Source of the DNA: Acidisoma silvae
Lineage (GTDB): Bacteria; Pseudomonadota; Alphaproteobacteria; Acetobacterales; Acetobacteraceae
NCBI RefSeq assembly: GCF_020618775.1
Contig: NZ_JAESVB010000002.1
Location: 434,001 to 498,000 of the forward strand
Reading direction: 5' to 3'
Length of the DNA stretch: 64,000 bases
The position numbers and the translations under genes are program-made. This document shows, piece after piece, positions 1,212-46,056 of this stretch; within the stretch, counting starts at the first letter, position 1, and each line of letters opens with the position of its first letter. Below the pieces are notes generated by a model. It made no database searches and had not been told where the DNA came from. It was given only the letters and a program-made list of their open reading frames with translations.

Positions 1212-1228
1212 TTTCCGTCGCCCGTGCC

Positions 1229-1260
1229 AGCCTGCCGGCCGATGCGGCGGCCGGCAGGCT
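1229..1260 (+). other. Intercistronic hairpin in the haem operon
   Basis: A perfect 12-bp inverted repeat (AGCCTGCCGGCC / GGCCGGCAGGCT) with an 8-nt loop lies between the haem oxygenase and hmuT. No T-tract follows, so it is more likely an RNA-stability or attenuation element than a full Rho-independent terminator. Confidence 0.55.
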
Positions 1261-1304
1261 GCAAACCCGGCATCCCTTTTCCTCCCTGTAAAATCGAGAC
1301 AGAC

Positions 1305-2186
1305 GTGCGCGCGCTTCCTTGGCTTCCCCCTCGCCTGCTGGCCGGTACCCTCCTGACCGCCGCGATATTTGCGGTGCCCTTCAACGCCGCTTTTGCGCAG
1401 ACGCATATCGTCTCGGTCGGCGGTGCCGTCACCGAAATCGTCTACGACCTGCATCAGCAGGACAGGCTGGCGGGCGTCGACAGCACCAGCGACTATCCCG
1501 AAGGCGCCAAGACACGCCCCGATATCGGCTATATGCGGCGTCTGGCGGCCGAGCCCATTCTGGCGCTGCACCCCGATCTGCTGCTGATCGAGGCCGGATC
1601 CGGTCCGCAGGGCGTGCTGACGCAGCTACAAGGCGCGGGCGTGCCGATAATCATGATTCCTGACCAGCCCGGCCTGCCCGGCGTGCTCGATAAAATCCAC
1701 ACAGTCGCGGCGGCGCTCGGCCAGCAGGCAGCCGGGGATGTGCTGGCCGCGCAGGTGGAGGATAGTGGGCAAAAACTCGCCGCTCGTCTCACCCATGTGC
1801 AACGCCATCCGAAGGTTCTGGTCCTGATGTCCGGGGGCAAAGGCAATATCCTGGCAGCCGGTGACGGCACCGCAGCCCAGGCCATCATCCGCCTCGCCGG
1901 CGGACAGAACGCCGTCACCGGCTTTCCCGGCTATGCACCGCTCTCGCCGGAAATCGTCGCCGCCAGCGCACCCGATGTCATCTTGATTCCCGATTTCGCT
2001 TTGCCCGGGCTTGGCGGCGAAGAAGCCGTGCTGACCTTGCCCGATCTGGCCGGCAGCCCGGCCGCGCGCAACAAACGCATCGTGGTGATGGACGGCATGC
2101 TGCTGCTGGGCTTTGGCCCGCGCACGCCGCAGGCCGCCGCGCAATTGGCCGCCGTCCTGCACCCTGACCTGCCATCGGCCCAGTAG
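1305..2186 (+). CDS. hmuT: Haemin ABC transporter, periplasmic binding protein
   Basis: Periplasmic haem-binding lipocalin-free (class III, helical-backbone) substrate-binding protein that hands haem to HmuUV. The GTG at 1305 is preferred because it starts a clean signal peptide ending NAAFA|QTH; longer frames add 27 Pro/Cys-rich residues. The mature N-terminus IVSVGGAVTEIVYDL and the segment TSDYPEGAKTRPDIGYMR are characteristic of HmuT/PhuT, with Tyr in the position expected for haem ligation. Length (293 residues) is normal. It lies 8 nt before hmuU in the order HmuT-U-V, with the haem oxygenase upstream and the receptor downstream. Confidence 0.88.
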   Translation: MRALPWLPPRLLAGTLLTAAIFAVPFNAAFAQTHIVSVGGAVTEIVYDLHQQDRLAGVDSTSDYPEGAKTRPDIGYMRRLAAEPILALHPDLLLIEAGSGPQGVLTQLQGAGVPIIMIPDQPGLPGVLDKIHTVAAALGQQAAGDVLAAQVEDSGQKLAARLTHVQRHPKVLVLMSGGKGNILAAGDGTAAQAIIRLAGGQNAVTGFPGYAPLSPEIVAASAPDVILIPDFALPGLGGEEAVLTLPDLAGSPAARNKRIVVMDGMLLLGFGPRTPQAAAQLAAVLHPDLPSAQ

Positions 2187-2193
2187 TCGAAAG

Positions 2194-3282
2194 ATGAGCC
2201 GTGCAGTGCTGTCCGGCCGAGCGGTCTTGCGCACGCACTTGACCCGGCCGCGCATCGTTATGCTCATGCTGGGGCTTTTGCTTATTGTCAGCGTCTTGCT
2301 GTCGGCCGGGATAGGCGCCGTTCCCATTCCCCCGCGCGCCATCCTGTTGGTTTTAGGTCGAGCGCTTGGTCTGCCGGCTTTGGGCGATCACACGCCGCTT
2401 CAGGCAACCGTGCTGATATCCATTCGCCTGCCGCGCGTCCTGCTGGGGCTGATGGTCGGCGCCAGTCTGTCTGCCGCCGGCGCCGCGACCCAGGGCCTAT
2501 TCCGCAACCCCCTCGCCGATCCCGGCCTGATCGGCATATCCAGCGGCGCCGCACTGGCGGCTGGTTTGCTCATCGTGCTCGGCGACCGGCTGCTGACCCA
2601 TATGCCGCTGGAATATCGCGCGGCGATGCTGCCCTTTGCCGCCTTCCTCGGCGGCCTTGTCACCACCGGCATCGTCTATCATCTGGCAAGCCGCCAGGGG
2701 CGCACGCATGTTACGACCATGCTGCTGGCCGGAGTGGCACTGAATGCCGGCATCGGCGCCACCCTGGGCCTGCTGATTTTCCTGAGCAATGACCAAAGCC
2801 TGCGCGATCTCAACTTCTGGCTCCTTGGCAGTCTCAGCGGCGTCACCTGGCCCAATCTCATCGTCGCGGCACCTTTGCTGACCATCCCCGCGTTGCTTCT
2901 GCTGAAACTGGCAAGTCCGTTGAATGGATTGCTGCTCGGTGAAACCGAAGCCTTTCATCTCGGCTTTGCGGTCGAGCGCACGAAACGCACCGTCACCGTG
3001 CTGACCGCGCTGACCGTCGGTGCGGCTGTCGCCCTGACAGGGATCATCGGCTTCGTCAGCCTTGTCGTGCCGCATATCGCACGGCAATTGGTGGGGCCCG
3101 ATCATCGCGTGATGATGCCGGCGGCCCTGCTGTTGGGCGCCAGCCTACTGACCCTGGCCGACCTTCTGGCGCGCACTTTGGCGCTGCCGCAGGAAATCCC
3201 GATCGGTATCCTTACCAGCGCGGTCGGAGCCCCCTTCTTTCTCGTCCAATTGCTCCGCCATCGCGCAGCGGCGGAAGGCTGA
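2194..3282 (+). CDS. hmuU: Haemin ABC transporter, permease
   Basis: Inner-membrane permease of the FecCD/BtuC family, 362 residues with about ten hydrophobic segments; it carries haem from HmuT to the cytoplasm. Family signatures include RLPRVLLGLMVGASLSAAG, the GLFRNPLADPGLIG loop and GFVSLVVPHIARQLVG, the helix region that contacts the ATPase. The ATG at 2194 is chosen because it follows the hmuT stop by 7 nt and has a GAAAG Shine-Dalgarno. An in-frame start at 2113 would overlap hmuT by about 70 bp and add basic, non-family sequence. It is followed 5 nt later by hmuV. Confidence 0.9.
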   Translation: MSRAVLSGRAVLRTHLTRPRIVMLMLGLLLIVSVLLSAGIGAVPIPPRAILLVLGRALGLPALGDHTPLQATVLISIRLPRVLLGLMVGASLSAAGAATQGLFRNPLADPGLIGISSGAALAAGLLIVLGDRLLTHMPLEYRAAMLPFAAFLGGLVTTGIVYHLASRQGRTHVTTMLLAGVALNAGIGATLGLLIFLSNDQSLRDLNFWLLGSLSGVTWPNLIVAAPLLTIPALLLLKLASPLNGLLLGETEAFHLGFAVERTKRTVTVLTALTVGAAVALTGIIGFVSLVVPHIARQLVGPDHRVMMPAALLLGASLLTLADLLARTLALPQEIPIGILTSAVGAPFFLVQLLRHRAAAEG

Positions 3283-3287
3283 CTGTT

Positions 3288-4070
3288 GTGCTGGCGGCTC
3301 AGGCTATCCATTTCGCGCGGCGCGGAACGCCGATTCTGAGCGATGTCACCGTGACGGTAACGCCCGGAAAGGTCACCGCGCTGATCGGCCCCAATGGCGC
3401 CGGCAAATCAACCTTGCTGCATATTCTGTCCGGCGCATTGCCCCCCGATCGGGGCAGCGTGCATCTGCATGGCTCGCAACTGGCCGACCTGCCGCGTATG
3501 GCCTTGGCACGGCTTCGTGCCGTGCTGCCACAGACGACGAGCGTCAGTTTTCCCTTTACCGTGCTTCAGGTGGTGCTGATGGGCCGCAGCGCCCATGCCG
3601 GTCTCACCACGCGCACGGAGGATCGCGCCATCGCGCAGGACGCGATGCGGATGACCGGCGCGGAAGCGCTGGCGGATCGCGCCTTCACCAGCCTTTCGGG
3701 CGGCGAGCAACAGCGCGTGCAACTGGCGCGTGTCATCGCGCAGATTTCCGGCGCGCCGAGTTCTGGCGCCCGCTTCTTGCTGCTGGACGAGCCCACCAAC
3801 CATCTGGATCTGTCGCATCAGCTTAAAATTCTGGGTGTCGCGCGATCGCTGGCACGCGGCGGCGCGGGCGTCTTCGCGGTTCTGCATGACCCCAATCTGG
3901 CTGCCATGTTCGCTGATCAGGTCATCATCCTGAGCAAAGGGCGCATTGTGGCGCAAGGGCGGACCGATGACGTTCTGCGGGCGGATATCATCGAGGCCGC
4001 GCTCGGCGTGCGCGTCATCGTGCAGCGCCATCCCGCTTTCGATGTGCCGCATATCGTGCCGGTGGCATAA
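3288..4070 (+). CDS. hmuV: Haemin ABC transporter, ATP-binding protein
   Basis: Cytoplasmic ATPase that drives HmuU. All ABC motifs are intact over 260 residues: Walker A GPNGAGKST, Q-loop, signature LSGGEQQRVQLAR, Walker B FLLLDEPTNHLD and the H-loop histidine in VLHDPNLA. The GTG start at 3288 has a GGAAGG ribosome-binding site about 10 nt upstream and follows the hmuU stop by 5 nt, so the three transporter genes are probably translated from one message. The C-terminus (HPAFDVPHIVPV) resembles HmuV proteins, not FhuC. Confidence 0.9.
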   Translation: MLAAQAIHFARRGTPILSDVTVTVTPGKVTALIGPNGAGKSTLLHILSGALPPDRGSVHLHGSQLADLPRMALARLRAVLPQTTSVSFPFTVLQVVLMGRSAHAGLTTRTEDRAIAQDAMRMTGAEALADRAFTSLSGGEQQRVQLARVIAQISGAPSSGARFLLLDEPTNHLDLSHQLKILGVARSLARGGAGVFAVLHDPNLAAMFADQVIILSKGRIVAQGRTDDVLRADIIEAALGVRVIVQRHPAFDVPHIVPVA

Positions 4071-4090
4071 GCCAAGGCCCGTCGTTCAAT

Positions 4091-4105
4091 TGCGAATTAT
4101 TCGCA
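4091..4105. promoter_or_regulatory. Fur-box-like palindrome before the TonB receptor
   Basis: Perfect 7-1-7 palindrome TGCGAAT-T-ATTCGCA, in the same register as the canonical Fur core TGATAAT-N-ATTATCA. It lies 150 bp upstream of the receptor start, next to a second palindrome at 4107-4127. Fur-family binding is inferred from symmetry and the haem-uptake context. Confidence 0.65.
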
Positions 4106-4106
4106 T

Positions 4107-4127
4107 TGCAATTGACTCTTAATTGCA
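4107..4127. promoter_or_regulatory. Second iron-box-like palindrome before the receptor
   Basis: A 21-bp site with half-sites TGCAATTGA and TTAATTGCA (8 of 9 symmetric) around CTC. It matches the arrangement of the site at 699-719, suggesting that the haem oxygenase/transporter unit and the receptor are co-regulated. It starts 1 bp after the palindrome at 4091-4105, so tandem occupancy is possible. Confidence 0.6.
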
Positions 4128-4255
4128 TTAACTCTTCGTGAGCTTGGCGACAGGCATTCCTCTCTCCTCCCGCGCGATCATCCGCCGACGGCAGAAACTG
4201 CGAATGCGCTGGCGCCACATGATTGCGCTATCAAGTATCGTGGAGATTCCCTGTT

Positions 4256-6265
4256 ATGACGTCGCGTTCGCGCTGGTTACTGGCAAGTTCCGCTCTCGGC
4301 ACGGCCTTCCTTCTGATTCCGGCCCTCGCCTCCGCCCAGAGCGACACGGATCAGACCCAAAGCCTGAAACCCTTGGTCGTCAGGGCGACACAGGCGCAGC
4401 CGGGCGATAATTCAACTTCTATCAGTCATAAAACCGTGCAGGAACACGGCTCCCGCAAGCTGGACGATGTTCTGCGCTCCACCGCCGGCGTCTATACGCG
4501 GCAAAGTTCGCAGCAGGCCGGCGTGGCTGTGAATATTCGCGGTTTCGAAGGCAGCGGCCGCGTCAATATGTCGATCGACGGCGTGCGGCAAAGCTTCGGC
4601 TTTACCGATCATGAAGCCGCAGGCTTCACCTATGTCGATCCCAATCTACTGTCCGGCATCGACATCAGCCGTGGCCAGGTCACCGGCCTTGGCGGCGGCG
4701 CGCTGGCCGGCACGGTCAATTTTCATACGCTCGGCGTCGATGACATCGTGAAGGACGGCCAGACCTTCGGTGCGCTGTCCCGCGTATCGCTCGGCAGCAA
4801 TTCGGCCGGCCTGCAATCCATGATCGGCGTCGGCGCCCAGAAGGATGGCGTCGGTGTTGTCGCGGCGATCGATCGAAATGTCTCCGGCGATTACAAGGAC
4901 GGCGACTACAACTCCGTCGCCCATAGCGGCCAGAACCTGACCTCTGGCCTCGCCAAAACCGAAGTGCATATCGGCACCGACCAGACCTTCGGTTTCGGCG
5001 CCGTCATCTACAACAACAATTTCTATGCCGACAGCTATTACCAGACGATCCACAACAATACGATGAGCGCCAATTACGCCTATACGCCGGGCGGCGACCT
5101 CGTCGATTTCGTGTCGCACGTTTACTATAACGAGTTGAACATGAAATACACGGGCGGCACCGGCTCCTATGTCGGCCGCAAAATCTATGACCAGGGCATC
5201 GGCGGCGACGCGCAGAACACATCCCATTTCAATGTCCATGGCGTTCAAATCACCAGCGCCAACGGCTTCGAGATCTTCCATGACAATGCCGGTTCGCGTA
5301 ACGGCGGCGTCAATCCGGGTACCGGCCAGCAGGCCCAGGTCGGCGTCTTTACCAATAATACCTTAAACTACGGCATCTTCAGCGTCTCGCCGAGCCTGCG
5401 CTATCAGTATTTCTCGGAAAACGGCAATGGCTATCTGTCGACCGGCTATGGCAATTACGTGATCAACCAGTCGCATGGAAAAGTCGAACCCAAGCTGACA
5501 CTCGCGGTTCAAGCGACACCCTGGCTGCAACCCTATGTCACCTGGTCTGAGTCCATGCGCGCGCCGACGGTGCAGGAAACCATGCTGGGCGGCGAACACC
5601 CTGGCACCGTCTCGGCCAGCTTCATTCCCAACCCCTATCTGAAGCCTGAGACCGATACCGGCTGGGAATTCGGCACCAATAGCAGCGCCCATGGCATCTT
5701 TACGGCGGATGATGCCTTCACCGCGCGTGGCGATTTCTACCTGATGAATGTCAGCAATTACATCACCGGCGCCTATGTCGCGAGCCAGAAAGCCTATCAG
5801 TTCCAGAACATCGCCGGCACCAGCAAGGTCGATGGCGTGGAACTGTCGGCGAAATACGATGCCGGTTTCGCCTTCGCGACCTTCGACTATACGCATTCCC
5901 ATTCGGATCTGCCGGCGACCTTCAGCGGCCTCGGCGCATCGCAATACCTGCCCGATAATGTCGTGGCCACAACCGTCGCCGGACGGTTGCTACAGCGCAA
6001 GCTGACCGTCGGCGCTAATTACCAGTTCACCTCGGGCGGCTGGACGACCGGCTATAATTCCACCCTGACCGCCGCGACGACCGTTCCCAATAGCGGCGAC
6101 CCTTACAATATCGTCGGCCTCTTCGCGAGCTACCAGGTGACGGACAATATCAATGTCCATGGCGAGGTCGCGAACCTGCTCAACGCCGACTACACACCCT
6201 TCCTCAGCACCACCGGCAATGGCCCCGGCCGCACCTTCTATGTCGGCACCGAGGTTCGTTTCTAA
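4256..6265 (+). CDS. TonB-dependent haem/haemoglobin receptor
   Basis: Outer-membrane TonB-dependent transporter of 669 residues, predicted to import haem. The ATG at 4256 has GGAG 10 nt upstream and gives a standard signal peptide ending ALASAQ; an earlier TTG at 4223 only adds 11 residues. A plug domain (about residues 60-170) carries VAVNIRGFEG and the RGQVTGLGGGALAGTV segment. The barrel contains SMRAPTVQE and NPYLKPETDTGWEFG, which correspond to the FRAP/NPNL region of haem receptors. The protein ends in a C-terminal Phe (EVRF), as expected for barrel insertion. The adjacent HmuTUV, haem oxygenase and iron boxes fix the substrate class; haem versus a haemoprotein cannot be separated. Confidence 0.85.
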   Translation: MTSRSRWLLASSALGTAFLLIPALASAQSDTDQTQSLKPLVVRATQAQPGDNSTSISHKTVQEHGSRKLDDVLRSTAGVYTRQSSQQAGVAVNIRGFEGSGRVNMSIDGVRQSFGFTDHEAAGFTYVDPNLLSGIDISRGQVTGLGGGALAGTVNFHTLGVDDIVKDGQTFGALSRVSLGSNSAGLQSMIGVGAQKDGVGVVAAIDRNVSGDYKDGDYNSVAHSGQNLTSGLAKTEVHIGTDQTFGFGAVIYNNNFYADSYYQTIHNNTMSANYAYTPGGDLVDFVSHVYYNELNMKYTGGTGSYVGRKIYDQGIGGDAQNTSHFNVHGVQITSANGFEIFHDNAGSRNGGVNPGTGQQAQVGVFTNNTLNYGIFSVSPSLRYQYFSENGNGYLSTGYGNYVINQSHGKVEPKLTLAVQATPWLQPYVTWSESMRAPTVQETMLGGEHPGTVSASFIPNPYLKPETDTGWEFGTNSSAHGIFTADDAFTARGDFYLMNVSNYITGAYVASQKAYQFQNIAGTSKVDGVELSAKYDAGFAFATFDYTHSHSDLPATFSGLGASQYLPDNVVATTVAGRLLQRKLTVGANYQFTSGGWTTGYNSTLTAATTVPNSGDPYNIVGLFASYQVTDNINVHGEVANLLNADYTPFLSTTGNGPGRTFYVGTEVRF

Positions 6266-6430: not shown

Positions 6431-8602
6431 ATGTCCTATCGCGTCCGATGGTCGCTTGTGCCGACCGTCATTGCCAGTATCGGCCTGGTCAGCGCCAATC
6501 TGGCGGCGAGCGCGCCCGCTTTCGCCCAAGCCGCGCCGCCACCGGCGCCGCCCGGCGCCACCGCGAATACAGCCGCTGATGCGGGTGACCCGCCTGCCCG
6601 CGTCGGCTGGCTGTCCAACCTCTCGGGCGCCGTCTCCTTCCACAGTGCCAGCCAGAATGCCTGGGCGACGGCGACGCAGAACTATCCGGTCGCGACCGGC
6701 GACGCGGTCTGGACCCAGCCCCAGGCCCAGGCTTCGGTGATGATCGATTCCAGCCGCATCGCGCTGGCCGGCGGCACCGAACTGACGGCCCAGGAAATTG
6801 ACCAGTCGACCATCACCGCCGCTCTGTCGCAGGGAGAGATCTTCCTCAATATCGTCGCCCTCGAAAACGGACAGAGCGTGGTGATCCAGACACCGCGCGG
6901 CACCGCGCAGATTACCGGCGCCGGCCAATATGAAATTTTTGCCGGCGACAGCAATACGCCGACCTATGTGACGGCGGTGACCGGCGCGATCCAGTTCACC
7001 GGCCTCGGCGCCAGCGGCCCGCAGGCCATCGCGGCACAACAAACCCTGGTCGTCTCCGGCACCAATCCGGTGCAGGCCCAATTGGGCGGCATGCAGCAGG
7101 ACCAGTTCCTGACCAGCATGCTGCAGCAGGCGGCCCCACCCCCGCCGCCGACCGCGACCGCCGCCCCGCCCGTGACAGCGCAGATGACCGGCGCCAGCGT
7201 GCTGACCCAATACGGCAGTTGGTCGCAGCAGGCCGGTGTCGGCGCAGTCTGGTTTCCGCAGGTCGCGTCGTCCTGGGTACCCTATCGCGACGGGCATTGG
7301 GCCTATGTCCAGCCCTGGGGCTGGACCTGGGTGGATAACGCGCCCTGGGGTTTCGCGCCCTTCCATTACGGCCGCTGGGCGCAATACGGCGACCGCTGGG
7401 GCTGGGTGCCGGAGCCCGCCGGCGACCCCGGCTATAATGAGGCCAGCTATCAGCCGGTCTACGCCCCGGCGCTCGTCACCTTCATCGGCGCGGCGGCCGG
7501 CGTGCTGACGGCGGCGGCCTTCGCTTCCGGCGCCATCGGCTGGGCGCCACTCGGGCCGCGCGAAGCCTATTACCCGCCCTATCCGGTCTCGCCGCGCTAT
7601 TTCGGCGCCTATAACCGCCCTTATGTGCAGAACTACAACCAGTTCTATCAGCGCAACGTGACGGTCGTGAACAACCGCATCAGCTACCGCGATGTCGGCA
7701 ACGAGAATAACGGGCCGGGCGCAGGTGGCGGCTTCTACAATCGCCAGGGTGCCACTTTCGCGCCGCGCGACGCCATGGTCGGCGGACGCCCCATCGCGAC
7801 CGTGGCCCACGGCCTGCCGCAGGGCGCGCAGGTCCAGGCCTTCCGCCCCGGCGCCGGTGGCGGCGGACAGCATGGCCTGCCGCCCGCACCGCAGGCCGGC
7901 CAGCAGCCCCATGGCGCGGCGGCACCTGGCCCGGCTTTCCGCCCGATACAGGCAGGCGAGGCCGGCGGCCGACGCGCAGCACCGCCGATGCTCGTTGCCC
8001 ATGGCGCGGTCGCGCCCAGCTTCCATGGCGGCGGCCAGCTTACAGGCGGCCAGCCCGTGCCCGGCGCTAGGCCGGCAGCGATGCCGCAACCACATGCGCC
8101 TCAAGCCGGCCCGCCCGGCATCGCGGCCCATAATCTGCCGGCTCTGGCTCCGGCGGCCGGTCATGCGGCGGCCGCCCATCCGCAGGCGATGCCCATGCAG
8201 GCGCCAATGCAGGCGCATGCCGCCCCTGGCCAACCGCAAGCGCCGCGTCCGGCGGCGATCCAGCCCGGCCAACCGCCCCGCACCGAGGCTGCTCGGCCTA
8301 CCACGCCGCCAATCCAGGCACCCCGGACAGCCGCACCCCGCCCTGCGCCGCAGGCGCCCCGCGCTGTGGCACCTCGCATGGAAGCGCCTCGGGCCGAAGC
8401 GCCTCGGGCGGAGGCGCCTCGGGTCCAGGCGCCTCGCCCGGCACCGGCGCCACGGGTGGAAGCGCCGCGACCTGCCGCTCCTCGGGTCGAAATGCCGCGA
8501 CCGGCGCCCGCGCCGCGCATGGAAGCCCCGCGACCGGCGCCGCACGCCGAAGCCCCCCGTCCCGCCCCGCATGGAAATCCACCAAGGCCTCCTCAGCACT
8601 AA
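6431..8602 (+). CDS. FecR-domain / DUF6600 exported protein
   Basis: Exported protein of 723 residues. It has a signal peptide (to APAFAQ) and a FecR-like beta-rich domain at about residues 55-215 ([31 protein letters not shown]). A DUF6600-type Trp-rich segment follows at about 255-340, with [29 protein letters not shown] and [18 protein letters not shown] hydrophobic stretch near 355-375 and a disordered Pro/Ala tail with APRxEAPR repeats complete it. In other bacteria these domains occur together in envelope proteins of unknown function. No TonB or sigma-factor gene is adjacent, so the FecR domain is unlikely to be a ferric-citrate-type anti-sigma factor here. The upstream neighbour is the haem receptor. 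Confidence 0.72.
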
Positions 8603-43804: not shown

Positions 43805-43823
43805 GATAATGATTATCACTATC
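43805..43823. promoter_or_regulatory. Near-canonical Fur box
   Basis: GATAATGATTATCACTATC differs at a single position from the 19-bp consensus GATAATGATTATCATTATC. It is the clearest metal-regulator site in the window and stands 111 bp before the unknown gene at 43934. Confidence 0.85.
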
Positions 43824-43860
43824 ATTCCTTGACGGAGGCAGAAGCCCTCGGTTAGCCTGC

Positions 43861-43881
43861 AATTGCGAATCGTTCGCAATT
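43861..43881. promoter_or_regulatory. Second iron-box palindrome before the unknown pair
   Basis: AATTGCGAA-TCG-TTCGCAATT, a perfect 9-bp inverted repeat around 3 bp. The core TGCGAA-N3-TTCGCA equals that of the site at 4091-4105. It lies 38 bp downstream of the canonical Fur box, giving a double operator. Confidence 0.75.
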
Positions 43882-43933
43882 TTACACGACGCAGCCCCAC
43901 GACGCGCCGCTGACCATGCCGCGATAGAGGCGA

Positions 43934-44437
43934 ATGATGACTGATAGCGACGAAAAAGGCAGTCAGGCCGAGCAATTGGCCTTGTGGATTATCCGCAGCG
44001 CCAGACGCGGCCCCGGACTGCCCTTCAGTGTCTGGATGACGGGTCACCGGGATCACTGGCGCGATCTGCAATCCATCATCGCGCTCTTTCGGGATATCAA
44101 CCGGGACTTCACGGCCCGACGTGGCGCGGGCCTGGATATCGCGCCACTCAGCCAGCTGGGCATGACGGTGGAGGAACGCCACCTGCTGCGCGCCGCAGCC
44201 GCCGCCCAGGCCGAAGACGACGCCGTTCTGAGCGAGTTGACGGCCATGCTCTGCCCGCATCCCGCGCTGGTCTCCGCGCTCGCCGATGCCGCTTCCATGC
44301 TGGGCGCCGTTCTGGCCACGCATGGCTACTGGCTGCCGAAACCGGACAGCGATTGCCGCCGCCTGCCCGGCCCGGCGCTGTCGGTCGCCCGCCGCCGCAG
44401 CACGACCTGGGACCGCGCCGATATCATGTGGCCCTGA
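43934..44437 (+). CDS. Unknown iron-box-controlled protein, first of a pair
   Basis: 167-residue protein not recognised as any known family. No signal peptide or membrane helix is seen, so it is probably cytoplasmic. It is helical, with six Trp (for example LALWIIRSA, LPFSVWMTGHRDHWRDL, ATHGYWLPKP) and two Cys (about residues 108 and 145). The Ala-rich centre (HLLRAAAAAQAEDDAVLSEL) looks like a helical bundle. Starts at 43934 and 43937 are both possible; AGAGG lies just upstream. The codon use looks like its neighbours', so recent transfer is not indicated. Two iron boxes upstream and a shared terminator after the next gene argue for an iron-starvation operon. Confidence 0.7.
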   Translation: MMTDSDEKGSQAEQLALWIIRSARRGPGLPFSVWMTGHRDHWRDLQSIIALFRDINRDFTARRGAGLDIAPLSQLGMTVEERHLLRAAAAAQAEDDAVLSELTAMLCPHPALVSALADAASMLGAVLATHGYWLPKPDSDCRRLPGPALSVARRRSTTWDRADIMWP

Positions 44438-44500
44438 AAGCCGCAGCCATCCCCCTGACCGTCGATCACGACCGTGTCGGCCCGACAAGGATTTTTCGTC

Positions 44501-44995
44501 ATGCTCATGAACAGATATGTCGGACTTTGCGACAATCTCCCCCAGCTTGAAAACAGCCTGTTATGGACGATGCGCGCCTGGGTGCTGGGCCATTGCCGCA
44601 GGCGGGATGTGAGCGACAGCATCCAGGGCGTGTTCGACCAGCTGCGCGCCTCCGAAGCCTGTTTCCATTTCGACCATTTCATGCAGGCGCTCAGCCGTGG
44701 CGCCAACCGCAGCCTGGAAGTCAATTGCGTCTGCAATTCCATGTTCAGCGAGGATGAAGCCGCGCTCATCGACATTTTCGCGCTGCAGCAGCGCGAGCAG
44801 CATGAGGAAGCTTTCGAGAAGCTGACGCGCATCACCACCGAATTCGCTGCTATGGCGGGGTGCGACCATGCCAATCGCGTCGCCATCGCGCTGTCTGACA
44901 GCGGCCATGTCTTCAATGGCGCAACCGTCACGGCGTCACCTGGCCGCCGCTGGCAGGCGGTCTCGGTCAGCCCCGCCTCCCTCTCCATTCACTGA
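44501..44995 (+). CDS. Unknown Cys-rich protein, second of the iron-boxed pair
   Basis: 164-residue protein of unknown family, apparently cytoplasmic. It has six cysteines (C10, C32, C54, C76, C78, C121), including CVC at 76-78 and a Cys/His cluster ACFHFDHF, which together could bind a metal or cluster. The segments FDQLRASEACFHFDHFM, NCVCNSMFSEDEAALIDIF and TEFAAMAGCDHANRV look structured and conserved. The ATG at 44501 is preferred because AAGGA lies about 10 nt upstream; an in-frame GTG at 44474 would add nine residues. It follows the first gene by 63 bp and ends before a strong terminator. Confidence 0.7.
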   Translation: MLMNRYVGLCDNLPQLENSLLWTMRAWVLGHCRRRDVSDSIQGVFDQLRASEACFHFDHFMQALSRGANRSLEVNCVCNSMFSEDEAALIDIFALQQREQHEEAFEKLTRITTEFAAMAGCDHANRVAIALSDSGHVFNGATVTASPGRRWQAVSVSPASLSIH

Positions 44996-45036: not shown

Positions 45037-45074
45037 AACCGCGGCAGCCCACAGGGCTGTCGCGGTTTTATTTT
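45037..45074 (+). terminator. Terminator of the iron-boxed pair
   Basis: Long stem AACCGCG-G-CAGCCC / GGGCTG-T-CGCGGTT with an ACA loop, then TTATTTT. Confidence 0.92.
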
Positions 45075-45399: not shown

Positions 45400-46056
45400 G
45401 TGAGCAGCGCTTCCTCCGTCAATCTGCAATCCGCCGCCCCGGTCATGTTTGATCTGGCCGACATCATCGTCCGCGAACAGGGCAAGTTGAGCGAAATCGA
45501 CGGCCAGACCGGCGATGGCGATCATGGTGTCAATATGGGCAAAGGCTTTCGCATCGCCGGTGAGCGTCTGCGCGCCCTGCCGTCCTTTACGCTGCCGGAA
45601 GGTCTGGCACTGCTGGGCGACACGCTGCTGAGCGATATCGGCGGGTCCATGGGTCCGCTCTACGGCACCTTCTTTACCGATATGAGCGAAGTATTGGACG
45701 GCAAGGACAGCCTGGACGCCGCCGACTTTTCCGCGATGCTGGCAGCCGGCCTCGCCGCCGTTCAAGGGCTGGGCGAAGCGAAGCCGGGCGACAAGACCCT
45801 GGTGGATGTCATCGTTCCCGCAAGCCAGGCCTTCAATGCCGCTGTCGCCGAAGGCAAAAGCTTCACCGAAGCGCTCGAGGCCTTACAAACCGCCGCCGCC
45901 GCCGGGCTGGAAGCGACGCGCGACATGGTGGCCAAGGTCGGCCGCGCCAGCCGCCTGGGTGAGCGTTCGCGCGGCACGCTGGATGCCGGCGCCGCGTCCT
46001 GTGACATGATTTTGGAAACCCTGGCCGCAGGGCTGATCAAACAGCTCGCGACCTGA
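45400..46056 (+). CDS. Stand-alone DhaL-type kinase domain protein
   Basis: 218-residue homologue of DhaL, the ADP/ATP-binding subunit of dihydroxyacetone-type kinases. Metal-binding aspartates are Asp34, Asp39 and Asp41 in IDGQTGDGDHGVNMGKG; DIGGSMGPLYGTFF and GDKTLVDVI are further family motifs. The C-terminal helix carries ASRLGERSRGTLDAGA. A DhaK partner is not directly adjacent, but a fused DhaK-DhaL protein is encoded at 50714. It could be an extra catalytic or regulatory subunit. The GTG start has GGAG 8 nt upstream. It is first of the operon and separated from the next gene by a hairpin. Confidence 0.85.
   Translation: MSSASSVNLQSAAPVMFDLADIIVREQGKLSEIDGQTGDGDHGVNMGKGFRIAGERLRALPSFTLPEGLALLGDTLLSDIGGSMGPLYGTFFTDMSEVLDGKDSLDAADFSAMLAAGLAAVQGLGEAKPGDKTLVDVIVPASQAFNAAVAEGKSFTEALEALQTAAAAGLEATRDMVAKVGRASRLGERSRGTLDAGAASCDMILETLAAGLIKQLAT

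Follow-up and report, generated by a model that had tools for sequence, protein, structure and literature searches.

Organization of the locus

The window, which is the whole 64-kb stretch of DNA that was analysed, belonged to a 5.4-Mb genome (G000) containing two FUR-family genes and one Lon gene. The counterpart locus (L042) was found in a second genome of the same genus (G003), on a contig that matched Acidisoma cellulosilyticum HW T5.17 (NZ_JAESVA010000003.1). The adjacent genes p1 and p2 were flanked by a divergent class-I aldolase gene (start 43593) and by a DAK2-domain gene at 45400, the first gene of a sugar-type cluster, and neither neighbour looked iron-related. The features of the locus were as follows:

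43805–43823, minus strand: Fur box 1, agreeing with the consensus at 18 of 19 positions, identical in L042
43861–43881, no strand: Fur-type box 2, arms TTGCGAA and TTCGCAA, 17-base core identical in L042
43934–44437, plus strand: p1, the paralogue without the Cys motif, 167 residues (166 with start 43937), C-terminus MWP
44501–44995, plus strand: p2, the Cys-motif paralogue, 164 residues, C-terminus SIH
44726–44734, plus strand: Cys76-Val-Cys78 of p2, at the position of the family Cys motif (from the sequence and family counts)
44756–44758, plus strand: Glu86 of p2, invariant across the 185 collected members in the family alignment
44981–44992, plus strand: C-terminal LSIH of p2, a putative Lon-type H-degron (from the sequence, member counts and literature)
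45037–45067, plus strand: intrinsic terminator after p2, 14 pairs, kept in L042

Box 1 differed from the 19-mer Fur consensus at one position on the minus strand and at two positions on the plus strand. When up to three mismatches were allowed, the 19-mer gave three overlapping matches in the window and none in 100 shuffles, in agreement with the near-perfect Fur box described in the initial annotation. The same annotation had described box 2 as a perfect palindrome, which was correct for the 7-base arms, perfect around a 3-base centre, and incorrect for the box as a whole, in which 18 of 21 positions were self-complementary. It had also claimed that the core was shared with the operator of a receptor gene, and the core indeed recurred upstream of a TonB-dependent receptor gene, at 4090–4105, where it matched TTGCGAATNATTCGCA at every position. 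With up to three mismatches, the box-2 pattern matched the window eight times against 2.2 expected, and eight matches were reached in one of 100 shuffles. Since this is only modestly above chance, box 2 taken alone carries far less weight than box 1.

Box 1 and the 17-base core of box 2 were unchanged in A. cellulosilyticum, with differences in the bases between them. Thus, a Fur operator was present before the first gene of the pair, and the strong terminator reported after the second gene was likewise found. No sigma-70-type promoter was detected upstream of p1 by a consensus scan. Together with the conservation of the genes, the operator supports the earlier view of the locus as a predicted iron-controlled unit of two undescribed proteins.

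At positions 1224–6265 of the window, genes for a Peripla_BP_2 protein, a FecCD permease and an ABC ATPase were followed by the TonB-dependent receptor gene, with the TTGCGAATTATTCGCA box at 4090. This region is probably an ordinary iron or haem uptake cluster. Next after the receptor gene, at 6431–8602, came a gene for a FecR/DUF6600 protein of 723 residues, whose long tail is rich in Pro and Ala.

Relationship of p1 and p2

Both open reading frames were present in A. cellulosilyticum under purifying selection, with NG86 dN/dS values of 0.142/0.974 for p1 and 0.028/0.774 for p2 (ratios of about 0.15 and 0.04), and shared 76% and 95% identity with their L042 counterparts, respectively. The second ATG (43937) is the more likely start of p1 because the first codon is not ATG in L042. 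The six Trp residues counted in p1 and the six Cys residues of p2, including the Cys76-Val-Cys78 pair, agreed with the initial annotation, as did the lack of a recognised family: a Pfam search with both proteins gave no match at E ≤10, and an NCBIfam search gave a single match at E 0.086, far below the cut-off. This missing family name is the one point in favour of p1 and p2 not being real genes, or of the boxes being a chance run. The idea is refuted by conservation, namely the low dN/dS values, the 185 members and the box enrichment described below, and it is given practically no credence.

In a search of 100 relatives, p2 was matched in 14 and p1 in six. Among five genomes of the genus, p1 occurred only in G000 and G003, a p2-like gene was present in G002 and G004, and neither kind was found in G001. 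Two alignments were compared: A1, with 13 rows of p2-like proteins and none of the p1 type, and A5, built independently from eight p1-type proteins. The A1 profile matched p1 both in the window (E 3.6e-5) and in L023 (E 5.5e-7), and profile–profile comparison of A1 with A5 by hhalign gave a probability of 95.4% and an E-value of 1.9e-8 over 130 columns. By these profile comparisons, p1 and p2 are ancient paralogues of one undescribed family, and not two unrelated proteins as they had been taken to be.

An AlphaFold2 model calculated from four sequences had a mean pLDDT of 44 and a pTM of 0.31. In this model there seem to be about six helices, the third and fourth of which flank the Cys motif, and at this mean pLDDT the description as helical stands on weak ground. 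When the profile of a 74-row family alignment (A2) was searched against solved structures, the best E-value was 0.32, which is noise. A PHROGs search with four proteins returned nothing below E 0.09, and no further family sequences were found in viral contigs.

Distribution and conservation of the family

The A1 profile matched at least 102 of 299 Acetobacteraceae genomes and at least 96 of 385 genomes of the class at E ≤0.001. These counts are lower bounds, as 9–12 first-look candidates were scored per genome; G071, for example, was missed in the class survey and yet matched A1 when scored directly. The A5 profile matched 43 of 200 Acetobacteraceae genomes, a part of these matches being p2-like genes. 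When A2 was searched against 299 genomes of the phylum, 25 matched: the genome of the window, a further 23 belonging to its class, and a single genome from elsewhere in the phylum, for which the E-value was 1.9e-4 over only 41 positions. The family therefore looks confined to the class, as far as sampled.

Family members have about 165 residues. Across the 185 members, profile position Glu90 was conserved in all 185, and Arg29, Gln101 and Trp31 were conserved in 98%, 91% and 84%, respectively. Named holders include Pseudoroseomonas cervicalis and Azospirillum lipoferum, oryzae and ramasamyi, in each of which the gene is annotated as "hypothetical protein".

The Pfam family DUF6628 (PF20333) was a distant homologue, matched by two of the 74 A2 members with a best E-value of 2.1e-4. 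The G071 protein, which lies over the DUF6628 cut-off, matched A1 at E 3.7e-10 and had an upstream box score of 15. In contrast, neither p1 nor p2 reached the curated cut-off of DUF6628 or matched it at E ≤10, and DUF6628 itself was rare, found in two of 289 class genomes, one of them over the cut-off. In a literature search by title and start of abstract, with most subscription papers outside its range, no paper on a family of this kind and no paper naming DUF6628 was found. In the available part of the main text on the Gluconacetobacter iron response (PMC9368920), no gene of this kind is named. The Fur-regulated hypothetical genes of Caulobacter were also considered, and no tie to the family could be made from the available part of that report (PMC3751524). 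A primer taken from it was used to look for the Caulobacter genome in 149 genomes of group f23, and matched only twice, each time with one mismatch, so that this route was abandoned.

Association with Fur-type boxes

The association of the family with Fur-type boxes was assessed with a degenerate 17-base pattern, drawn up after reading 19 upstream regions, all of which belonged to the first set of loci. A box was called when at least 14 of 16 positions agreed within 350 bases upstream. In the first set, a box preceded 54 of 74 members, compared with 34 of 684 upstream regions of other long open reading frames. The held-out set (L142–L244) consisted of 100 places hand-picked for spread from the A1 and DUF6628 genome surveys and three plasmid loci, and included some genera or genomes of the first set. 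Here a box preceded 96 of 111 members, whereas random stretches taken from these loci contained one in 13 of 406 cases and dinucleotide-shuffled versions of the held-out upstream regions in 24 of 2220. At least one boxed member was present in 62 of 68 genus groups and in 32 of 35 family groups, so the Fur linkage anticipated for the homologues extends far beyond the genus.

At the same threshold, 13 of 21 p1-type members carried a box. The members below the threshold numbered 20 in the first set, 15 of 111 in the held-out set and eight of 21 among the p1-type proteins. Several of those in the first set were second genes of tandem pairs, and such genes often lacked a box of their own (L023, L037, L107, L111 and L132–L136), as an operon predicts. 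Fur control of the family is predicted with high confidence from these associations. The protein that recognises the boxes may be Fur itself or a closely related regulator (Mur or Irr).

The C-terminal tail and Lon

The stretch past the last helix comprised about 25 residues and was variable and poor in acidic residues. A terminal His was found in 110 of 185 members, and a terminal [LIVMF]-His in 102, compared with five and two, respectively, of 215 neighbour proteins. The C-terminus of p2, L-S-I-H, has the hydrophobic residue and the terminal His, and that of p1, WP, has no such end. Of the 75 members without a terminal His, 15 ended in Arg. In an Acetobacteraceae subgroup (L182–L188), CPLCP-like motifs were accompanied by Arg-rich ends (PLR, PR) in place of His.

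In the available part of the report on Lon degrons (PMC11986505), C-terminal x-[LI]-[LIV]-H sequences are described as autonomous degrons, in which His works best at the final position, followed by Val and Pro, with Arg and Asp the least suitable; H-end variants occur on about 2.3% of Caulobacter open reading frames. The Lon substrates of the SulA and Smg type resemble p2 in their hydrophobic-His H-degron (PMC11986505, in part), whereas no sequence relation between them and this family was found. The strict motif fitted only 14 of the 110 His-ended members, and p2 failed it because of a Ser at the antepenultimate place; a degron is therefore something that we infer. On balance, p2-type members have about an even chance of carrying a Lon degron, which is accordingly listed here as putative.

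The His tail might also do more than mark the protein for degradation. LarA (DUF1150), an alphaproteobacterial heat-shock protein, uses its last five residues to bind Lon and switch it on, and loses this ability when its terminal His is changed (available part of PMC10665427). A Lon regulator of this kind would use the tail to switch on or aim Lon when iron is scarce, and would thereby remove iron-using proteins. The L-S-I-H end of p2 can be compared with Val86 and Val88 before His89 of LarA, which is likewise a small stress-induced protein with hydrophobic residues and His at its end (PMC10665427, in part), and a connection between Lon and limiting iron has been reported for Klebsiella pneumoniae (PMC7194016). 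However, LarA is under heat-shock rather than Fur control and has 89 residues, and no homology to its family was found: at the thresholds used, DUF1150 was not matched by p1 or p2 in Pfam and did not appear in the list of 10 families obtained with the 74 A2 members. Furthermore, H-ends are common (PMC11986505, in part) and the proteins that carry them are mostly plain substrates, and the 75 members without a terminal His also speak against a regulator of the LarA type, which is considered rather improbable.

The Cys motif and the question of a metal site

Residues Cys76 and Cys78 of p2 lie at the position of the family CxC/CPxCP motif. The proportion of His-ended members rose with the number of Cys residues at this motif: two of 34 members without any, 18 of 32 carrying a single Cys and 90 of 119 carrying at least two. 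A shared metal site is possible, and so is the loss together of two ancestral traits. In the first case, a single site for metal, Fe-S cluster or haem would be built from the motif, the C-terminal His and perhaps the invariant Glu, and the protein would store, deliver or sense iron, zinc or a cluster in starvation, with p1 as a metal-free partner. This is consistent with a His end in 108 of the 151 members with at least one motif Cys, against the two of 34 without, and with Fur-type control of nearly the whole family.

Although these raw counts were strong, the joint change of Cys and His on the tree was not significant, with few supported independent pairs (five and nine) and a median p of 0.25, and co-evolution of the two was rejected as proof of a metal site. 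In addition, 32 of 185 members had only one motif Cys and 34 had none, and no likeness to a known metal protein emerged from the Pfam, NCBIfam and solved-structure searches. The motif is missing from p1 as well as from those 34 members and thus cannot represent a core function shared by all members. Metal handling is regarded as an unlikely reading, worth keeping in view.

Gene arrangement and neighbours

Two members lay within 1.5 kb of each other, in tandem or head to head, at no fewer than 23 of 162 loci, a lower bound because many loci were covered for only about 1 kb on each side. Pairing was thus found in a minority of loci, and homologues usually stand unpaired. Unlike pairs recurred, in which a member with the Cys motif and His tail stood beside a member with neither (L112, L115, L137 and L152–L154). 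At L119 (5791–6972), a single frame of 394 residues contained two tandem copies of the family domain. L105 and L106 represent two copies in one genome, and inspection by eye revealed a peroxiredoxin-like gene closely after each.

Another reading is that the proteins assist a system for iron uptake or storage, for instance as cytoplasmic partners of a TonB system or of a ferritin. A Ferritin, TonB_C or TonB-dependent receptor gene adjoined in six of the 35 loci scanned, and the box core of p1 and p2 is shared with the receptor cluster about 40 kb away in the window. Against this, 29 of the 35 loci had no such gene among the one or two proteins tested per locus, and clustering of neighbours across genera gave no cluster specific to the family. 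An accessory role in uptake or storage is judged very unlikely.

The widest neighbour cluster, a class-III aminotransferase, covered six loci, four of them from one genus, and LysR regulators, a common class, adjoined four of the 35 scanned loci. In five loci (L026, L043, L112, L125 and L127), which represent several genera, a methyl-accepting chemotaxis protein was encoded no more than 4.5 kb from the family member. This was the sole recurrence across genera and counts against a flat statement that no neighbour is conserved; it is possibly due to chance. Since methyl-accepting receptors are abundant and their signalling domain is common, the link to chemoreceptors was not built on. With mostly lone members and varying neighbours, action in trans is most likely.

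Proposed role in iron starvation

The preferred reading is that the family consists of helical regulators or adaptors that serve in iron starvation, are controlled by Fur and act in trans, and that those with a His tail are passed on to Lon. It is held at roughly equal chances of being right and wrong. The assignment to a regulator or adaptor role, and not to a transporter, is more tentative and falls somewhat short of an even chance. Common descent, selection and the repeated association with Fur-type boxes are read from sequence, and the remainder we infer.

In the proposed mechanism, the two-gene, iron-repressed operon would carry both diverged paralogues. Iron-loaded Fur would block the transcription of p1 and p2, and both proteins would be made when iron falls. 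Being small, apparently soluble and probably mostly helical, they would act in trans on something outside the operon. The hydrophobic-His members, p2 at this locus, would be recognised by Lon through the tail, which would either make the response short-lived or allow the protein to engage Lon itself. The p1 protein, which lacks the Cys motif and the His tail, may be a partner or a longer-lived variant. A likeness in idea only is found in the iron-sparing proteins FbpA, FbpB and FbpC of Bacillus, which are small, Fur-induced and act in trans.

In a bolder form, by analogy, this Fur-induced family would couple iron starvation to Lon across the class, with the His-tailed member engaging or activating Lon to reshape the proteome under iron shortage, much as LarA does in heat shock, and the tail-less paralogue supplying the target or shielding the pair. 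Such a coupling seems a long shot at present; if true, it would be a protein-based iron-sparing arm in alphaproteobacteria.

The core claim of an undescribed pair behind Fur boxes is right and was understated, as the Fur linkage is family-wide. Pairing and the proposed metal handling came out weaker than first supposed. About a quarter of the sampled alphaproteobacterial genomes match the family, yet Pfam represents it by no more than a remote branch. Because Fur-type boxes accompany it almost constantly, the family is a new candidate component of how this class responds to iron starvation, and through the His tail a possible connection of iron with the Lon protease can be tested directly. Should the Lon reading prove wrong, the family would still offer experiments a concrete target, being widespread, linked to Fur and uncharacterised.
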